Shown here piece after piece: positions 46,362-47,144 of a stretch of 64,000 nucleotides of DNA; the first letter of the stretch is position 1, and every line of letters starts with the position of its first letter. Location of the stretch: assembly GCA_030425205.1 (NCBI GenBank), contig JAUIAP010000001.1:310001-374000 (forward strand), given 5' to 3'. The stretch comes from Anaerolineae bacterium (lineage in GTDB: Bacteria > Chloroflexota > Anaerolineae > Promineifilales > Promineifilaceae). The notes beneath the pieces were generated by a model that saw nothing but the letters and a program-made list of their open reading frames with translations, was not told where the DNA came from and did no database searches. The translations under genes were made by a program, and so were the position numbers.

Positions 46362-47144
46362 TTATTCCATCGTTTCATTCAGTCGAACAGGTTTAACAGG
46401 GGCAGGTTGCTCCAATAGTGCGAGCGTTGCGTTGAGAACGCGCAGTTGTTGGGCAACGTCATGAGGTGCGCCGATGGTGGCACCGCGCATCAGTTGCGTG
46501 AAGGTGGCACGGGGCGGCGCAGTGACGCGCGTGCGACCTGCGTTCCAACTCGTCAGCGTAGTGGCAATGCCGTTCATTTCGAGTGCGCGTGCGATCAGTC
46601 CCACGGACTGAGAGCAGATCGGTCAGGACGGGACGAGCAGTGCGCCATCGGCCTGCTCCATTTCCACAACATCCAAGATAGCTGGAATCGTCTCATCTAA
46701 CACCTGCGAAATGTCGGGTTGATAGCCCATCGCAAAGATCATGTTGTTGGTCAATGCGCCAATTTTGCCATCCTCGACCATTTTTTGCAGATGGCGCAGC
46801 GGGACGAGCACTTGTGGATCAGCGTTGACAGCGGTGTGGTCGTAGTGCGTATGGGAATAGGCGATTTGGTCGAGTGGCGTGTGGCTAGGGACGGAGCGAA
46901 TGGCATAGTCGCCGAGATCGTTTTCCGCATCGAATGGCGGTTGAGATGCGGGGAGATAGCCGCCGGCGGTTGAGATAAGGATGAGACGACTGCTGGCAAG
47001 ATCGATCGGATCACCAGCAGGGGCGACTTTGTTGTTGGGCTTGTTGTAAATGCTCCAATCCGTTTGGCCTGTTGCATTGTAGTGGGCAAGCCAGCCGCTT
47101 TGGAATTCGGTTTCCCACTGGGGGCGATTTTCTAAAATTTGCAT
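46362..47144 (-). CDS. Selenoprotein of the glycine/sarcosine/betaine reductase GrdB-like family (UGA = Sec174)
   Basis: 260 aa if the in-frame TGA at 46625-46623 is read as selenocysteine. Upstream of it the frame ends ...EQADGALLVPS. Directly after it the same frame continues PICSQSVGLIARALEMNG to a TAA at 46362. The result is a Sec174-Pro-Ile-Cys177 UxxC redox motif, exactly where GrdB-type selenoproteins carry Sec. A SECIS-like hairpin sits at 46595-46611. The start at 47144 (MQILENRPQWETEF) fits the family; an ATG at 47195 would add 17 residues. Single-gene members of this family occur without the glycine-reductase complex and their substrate is unknown. A naive gene caller would split this into two ORFs. 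Confidence 0.88.
46595..46611 (-). promoter_or_regulatory. Bacterial SECIS element within the selenoprotein mRNA
   Basis: Read on the minus strand: TCAGTCC (46611-46605), apical loop GTG, GGACTGA (46601-46595): seven perfect base pairs. The loop starts 19 nt after the UGA, within the roughly 16-37 nt window for SelB-binding hairpins, and its first two bases are GU as required. Confidence 0.8.

Follow-up and report, generated by a model that had tools for sequence, protein, structure and literature searches.

A predicted stand-alone selenoprotein of the PrdB/GrdB superfamily encoded across an in-frame UGA codon in a Chloroflexota genome

Results

A single predicted gene spanning an in-frame UGA codon

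The window, as we call the whole 64,000-nucleotide stretch of DNA analyzed here, very probably contains one intact gene for an expressed, selenocysteine (Sec)-containing, stand-alone protein of the PrdB/GrdB superfamily, a reading built on comparative sequence analysis. Two minus-strand open reading frames (ORFs) in the same frame (47144→46626 and 46622→46362) are separated by a single UGA (46625–46623), and reading through this codon yields a 260-aa protein containing Sec174-Pro-Ile-Cys177. Ordinary gene callers report two spurious ORFs here, with the result that the protein readily escapes notice or the gene is labeled a pseudogene. An initial annotation of this DNA had proposed two same-frame ORFs split by a single TGA as well as the Sec174-Pro-Ile-Cys177 motif; the ORF coordinates agree, and the read-through translation gives exactly these residues. 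Its structural claims held throughout, but it left out that the gene lies on the minus strand. The features within the window are as follows.

46362 to 47144, minus strand: predicted selenoprotein gene, 260 aa (ATG at 47144, TAA at 46364-46362)
46623 to 46625, minus strand: UGA codon, predicted to encode Sec174 (TGA in the same column in 12 close orthologues and 32 aligned homologues)
46614 to 46616, minus strand: TGC codon for Cys177, the putative resolving Cys of the UxxC motif (invariant in the alignment)
46595 to 46611, minus strand: SECIS-like hairpin with a 7-bp stem (from folding and covariation)

As to the start codon, an in-frame TGA lies just 5′ of the equivalent ATG in the orthologue L024. 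Two orthologues appeared to have two TGA codons, and a second Sec was rejected in these cases, the extra TGA being located 5′ of the start codon. Across the 64-kb window, 11 TGA codons are flanked in frame by sense stretches of ≥100 and ≥60 codons, and three of the 10 others likewise have some hairpin (≥6 bp) at the SECIS distance; judged from this sequence alone, a TGA accompanied by a hairpin could be a product of chance. The site described here stands above chance because the UGA column is constant across homologues and the hairpin covaries.

Conservation of the UGA codon and of the downstream peptide

Homologues (E value of 1e-10 or better) were found in 37 of the 298 genomes of the class, and among the matches listed, all but one contained an internal TGA, the exception being a truncated match that stops short of the position. 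When 32 Chloroflexota homologues were aligned, the Sec column was UGA in every row (32/32), and Cys177, H98, D109, E189, and R212 were invariant. Comparison of the window gene with 11 orthologues (~50 to 66% identity) revealed higher protein identity 3′ of the UGA than 5′ of it; for L024, identity was 79% after the UGA versus 60% before. Synonymous differences in these 11 orthologues were near saturation on both sides of the UGA (pS of about 0.6 to 0.85, pN of 0.16 to 0.36), and this pattern 3′ of the UGA indicates that the downstream peptide is under purifying selection in this frame.

A phylum-wide search detected homologues in 100 of 400 genomes, and the stop-free relatives that we fetched from the phylum carry Cys precisely at the Sec position (TAGCPLC). 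The same position is Cys in two homologues on alphaproteobacterial plasmids (Haematobacter and Roseomonas; CPIC and CPVC), which NCBI names “glycine/sarcosine/betaine reductase selenoprotein B family protein”; these are stand-alone like the window protein but have Cys in place of Sec and share about 33% identity with it. The alignment of Sec- and Cys-containing homologues that the initial annotation had proposed as a check thus gave Sec or Cys in all sequences compared and no other residue. In another Chloroflexota genome (G647), three tandem PrdB/GrdB-like matches are located at L134:5380-10246; every one of them lies in an open frame some 450 residues long that includes one TGA.

A covarying hairpin immediately after the UGA

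The first 28 nt 3′ of the UGA contain the hairpin UCAGUCC-GUG-GGACUGA (5′ arm, 46611-46605; triloop, 46604-46602; 3′ arm, 46601-46595). The 7-bp stem and the GU-starting triloop had been proposed beforehand, together with position 19, which corresponds to the first base of the loop: the GUG begins at nucleotide 19 after the UGA. The bacterial SECIS consensus calls for a hairpin 16 to 37 nt after the UGA with a G close to where the apical loop begins, and the hairpin of the window gene agrees in both distance and loop. The folding energy of the 60 nt was ordinary (z of 0.17).

In 28 homologues, the stem is found at an identical distance from the UGA, the loop consists of GU plus any base, and the inner six pairs are intact in all 28. 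When codons were permuted among the sequences with synonymous exchanges only, leaving every protein unchanged, the mean number of sequences with the inner six pairs intact over 2,000 runs was 21.3 and the maximum was 26, compared to the 28 observed. Compensatory double changes occurred at five of the seven stem pairs (0 of 500 shuffles). Each of the five covariation measures was higher than in all 500 shuffles and in every slid control.

The same genome has a divergent paralogue (L001; Sec170-Pro-Asp-Cys, 32% identity) about 81 kb away from the window gene.

L001:1117-2007 (G000:C98:437975-438865, outside the window), minus strand: paralogue, second predicted selenoprotein of the same superfamily

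L001 and its relatives have the stem ACGYGCC/GGCRCGU with a loop, CGUGYU, that starts from nucleotide 24 after the UGA. Since the hairpins of the window gene and of the L001 group differ in shape and spacing, at least two SECIS shapes appear to occur in the family.

Selenocysteine machinery

The initial annotation implied that the organism has selA, selB, selC, and selD, and a search of the genome recovered all four: selC (tRNA-Sec) with the anticodon UCA (TCA in DNA; 64.4 bits), selA (553 bits; cutoff, 268), selD (377 bits; cutoff, 125), and selB (343.5 bits; cutoff, 242), the last on the window's own contig. The assembly (7.8 Mb, 96% complete) has a listed contamination of 7.7%; this does not explain the presence of the machinery, because selB and the gene lie on one 590-kb contig. 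A selA match (E value of 0.001 or better) was obtained in all 37 carriers of the class, one of them weak (E value of 1.4e-8), and in 262 of the 298 class genomes. The selD gene has an in-frame TGA of its own (L019:1531-1533) within the motif ASCAGUASK, suggesting that the selenophosphate synthetase is also a selenoprotein.

From the conservation of the codon and the presence of the machinery, we infer that Sec is inserted at the UGA. SelB with Sec-tRNA would bind the hairpin 3′ of the UGA, and the UGA at 46625-46623 would be decoded as Sec174. A nonsense mutation or sequencing error that split a former reductase gene, leaving a pseudogene, would fit the single in-frame stop, the monocistronic arrangement, and the lack of the gene in most genomes of the family, but the identical stop is present in all compared homologues, from many families of the phylum, and purifying selection is evident on both sides of it. 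The conserved UGA refutes this explanation, and we give it a negligible probability. Scarcely more probable is that the UGA is a true stop, as the standard code has it, terminating a 173-residue product, and that the downstream ORF is a separate gene, for which the GTG at 46604 could serve as the start. However, the invariant Cys177 precedes that GTG, relatives have Cys at the Sec position, and the hairpin covaries, all of which favor one gene read through the UGA.

Relationship to PrdB and GrdB

The protein matched the Pfam GRDB family (PF07355) with 33.9 bits versus a gathering score of 22 (positions 210-315 of 347). Its best NCBIfam match was the PrdB model TIGR04483 (95.1 bits; E value of 4e-27), which missed the equivalog cutoff of 300, whereas authentic clostridial PrdB scored 423.7 bits against the same model. 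The glycine reductase protein B models TIGR01917 and TIGR01918 gave 25.4 and 30.5 bits and missed their cutoffs (602 and 65, respectively). The earlier description of the protein as “GrdB-like” is apt insofar as the Pfam GRDB cutoff is passed, but the closest named family is PrdB, and the score is far under the PrdB cutoff. A weak metallo-beta-lactamase match arising from an HTHYDH stretch (E value of 0.017, under the cutoff) was dismissed as chance, and a PDB sequence search returned no homologue of the window protein.

In a maximum-likelihood tree, which was midpoint rooted and so carries no direction of change, the window protein and 15 Chloroflexota orthologues formed one clade (support of 100/100; branch length of 1.13). 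Firmicutes PrdB formed a separate clade (100/100), sister to the Chloroflexota Cys group (99/95). This Cys subfamily (TAGCPLC; L102-L116) occurs in several genomes of Chloroflexota, some of them very large, and its position beside Firmicutes PrdB hints that the phylum could be used to trace how Sec and Cys were exchanged and how PrdB arose.

Absence of a pyruvoyl partner

No pyruvoyl subunit (PF09338; PrdA/GrdE), on which D-proline and glycine reductases depend, was found in the 96%-complete genome, and all 37 carriers likewise lacked a match; as a positive control, the same search gave strong matches in 3 of the 298 class genomes, none of them a carrier. The genes next to the window gene are prephenate dehydratase-like and glucokinase-like (names read from sequence), both on the opposite strand, and no prdA, prdC, or prdD adjoins it. 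Three of the five Firmicutes prdB loci that we fetched were flanked by prdA and companions. Clustering of the neighborhoods of the 37 loci yielded no partner common to them: genes for SDR, FAD-linked oxidase, thioesterase, PIG-L, RidA, GFO/IDH, and other proteins each occurred beside only one to a few loci. Some neighbor clusters that appeared conserved proved to be antisense ORFs over the selenoprotein gene itself. At two loci (L058:7095-8483 and L065:7789-9204), both orthologous to that of the window gene, a FAD-linked oxidase gene (PF02913/PF01565) lies directly 3′ of the selenoprotein gene on the same strand. The view in the initial annotation that this is a stand-alone protein with no known reaction fits these findings, with neither PF09338 nor a conserved neighbor over the 37 loci.

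There is a slight chance that the window protein is in fact the PrdB subunit of D-proline reductase, TIGR04483 being its best named family. The two share a homologous domain and Sec in a UxxC motif, but PrdB has UGTC, usually occurs with prdA, prdC, and prdD, and scores 424 bits, whereas the window protein has UPIC, scores 95 bits, and lacks a partner. GrdB, GrdF, and GrdH (PF07355) are homologous to the window protein in their Sec-containing C-terminal half; the GrdB models, however, are about 430 aa long, and GrdB works with the pyruvoyl subunit GrdE and with GrdA. Because the score is 95 rather than 300 bits, the clade is separate and on a long branch, and the pyruvoyl partner is absent, the window protein is neither D-proline reductase PrdB nor glycine reductase GrdB proper. 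The missing pyruvoyl partner also makes D-proline or glycine reduction unlikely.

Predicted structure

An AlphaFold2 model of the window protein (pLDDT of 95.5, pTM of 0.93) predicted a compact alpha/beta fold in which Sec occupies the turn from strand to helix, between the strand at 167-171 and the helix at 175-190, and Cys177 one helical turn on. Foldseek searches against PDB and viral models returned nothing below an E value of 0.001 (best PDB match, E value of 0.019 and TM score of 0.24). With no convincingly similar fold, the structure points to no function.

Discussion

The gene described here belongs to a known group, given that counts of stand-alone “PrdB” selenoproteins in ocean metagenomes go back to 2005. 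Members of this family, probably redox-active enzymes, occur in many environmental bacteria. The Sargasso Sea survey contained 42 such UxxC selenoproteins and the Global Ocean Sampling data 235; in abundance, PrdB/GrdB-like UxxC proteins rank with the foremost selenoprotein families reported from marine metagenomes (PMC1088965, PMC2398784), and reviews also name a “PrdB” selenoprotein family (PMC9312934, PMC13188914). The marine proteins resemble the window protein in their UxxC motif, PF07355/PrdB homology, bacterial SECIS right after the UGA, and occurrence in Sec and Cys forms. In those papers, the proline reductase name was given by homology; here, we tested for the partner, which is absent, and against the PrdB cutoff, which the protein fails to reach. 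The family is named after an anaerobic amino acid reductase whose partner subunit is missing here. The absence of this subunit from all 37 sampled carriers of the class argues that the PrdB label misleads about the actual reaction; the literature that we searched held no assignment of a reaction for stand-alone members.

By analogy to GrdB and PrdB chemistry and from the UxxC motif, the most likely role of the protein is that of a thiol-regenerated selenol reductase, most likely working through a selenolate and a selenenylsulfide. The Sec174 selenolate would attack an electrophilic substrate, Cys177 would resolve the intermediate as a selenenylsulfide, and a cellular dithiol or the thioredoxin system would re-reduce it. 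For the reductive cleavage step taken by itself, the motif and distant homology tip the balance slightly in favor. A smaller but substantial chance goes to Sec serving in peroxide or disulfide reduction or in metal binding rather than in reductive bond cleavage of a small metabolite, an alternative that competes with the chemistry step only and leaves the selenoprotein reading as it is. UxxC is common to thioredoxin-like redox proteins, and the diverse neighbors indicate no pathway, both of which are compatible with this alternative; against it, Foldseek gave no likeness to thioredoxin or peroxiredoxin folds, and the invariant H98, D109, E189, and R212 point to a substrate pocket in addition to the redox motif.

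More speculatively, and with the odds against it, the window protein may represent a large, mostly Sec-containing stand-alone family, with a fold absent from PDB, that carries out a previously undescribed selenol-dependent reduction without a pyruvoyl subunit, classical PrdB being a specialized branch that acquired such a subunit as its partner. Activation of the substrate in glycine and sarcosine reduction takes place through a Schiff base (PMC10838667). The lack of a pyruvoyl subunit, and with it of Schiff base activation, favors a substrate that either comes already activated or is no amine. The farB/farE products, for which cleavage of the fluoroacetate C-F bond has been proposed (PMC10838667), show that diversification of the superfamily extends past amino acids, but a GrdE-type partner is still present in that system.
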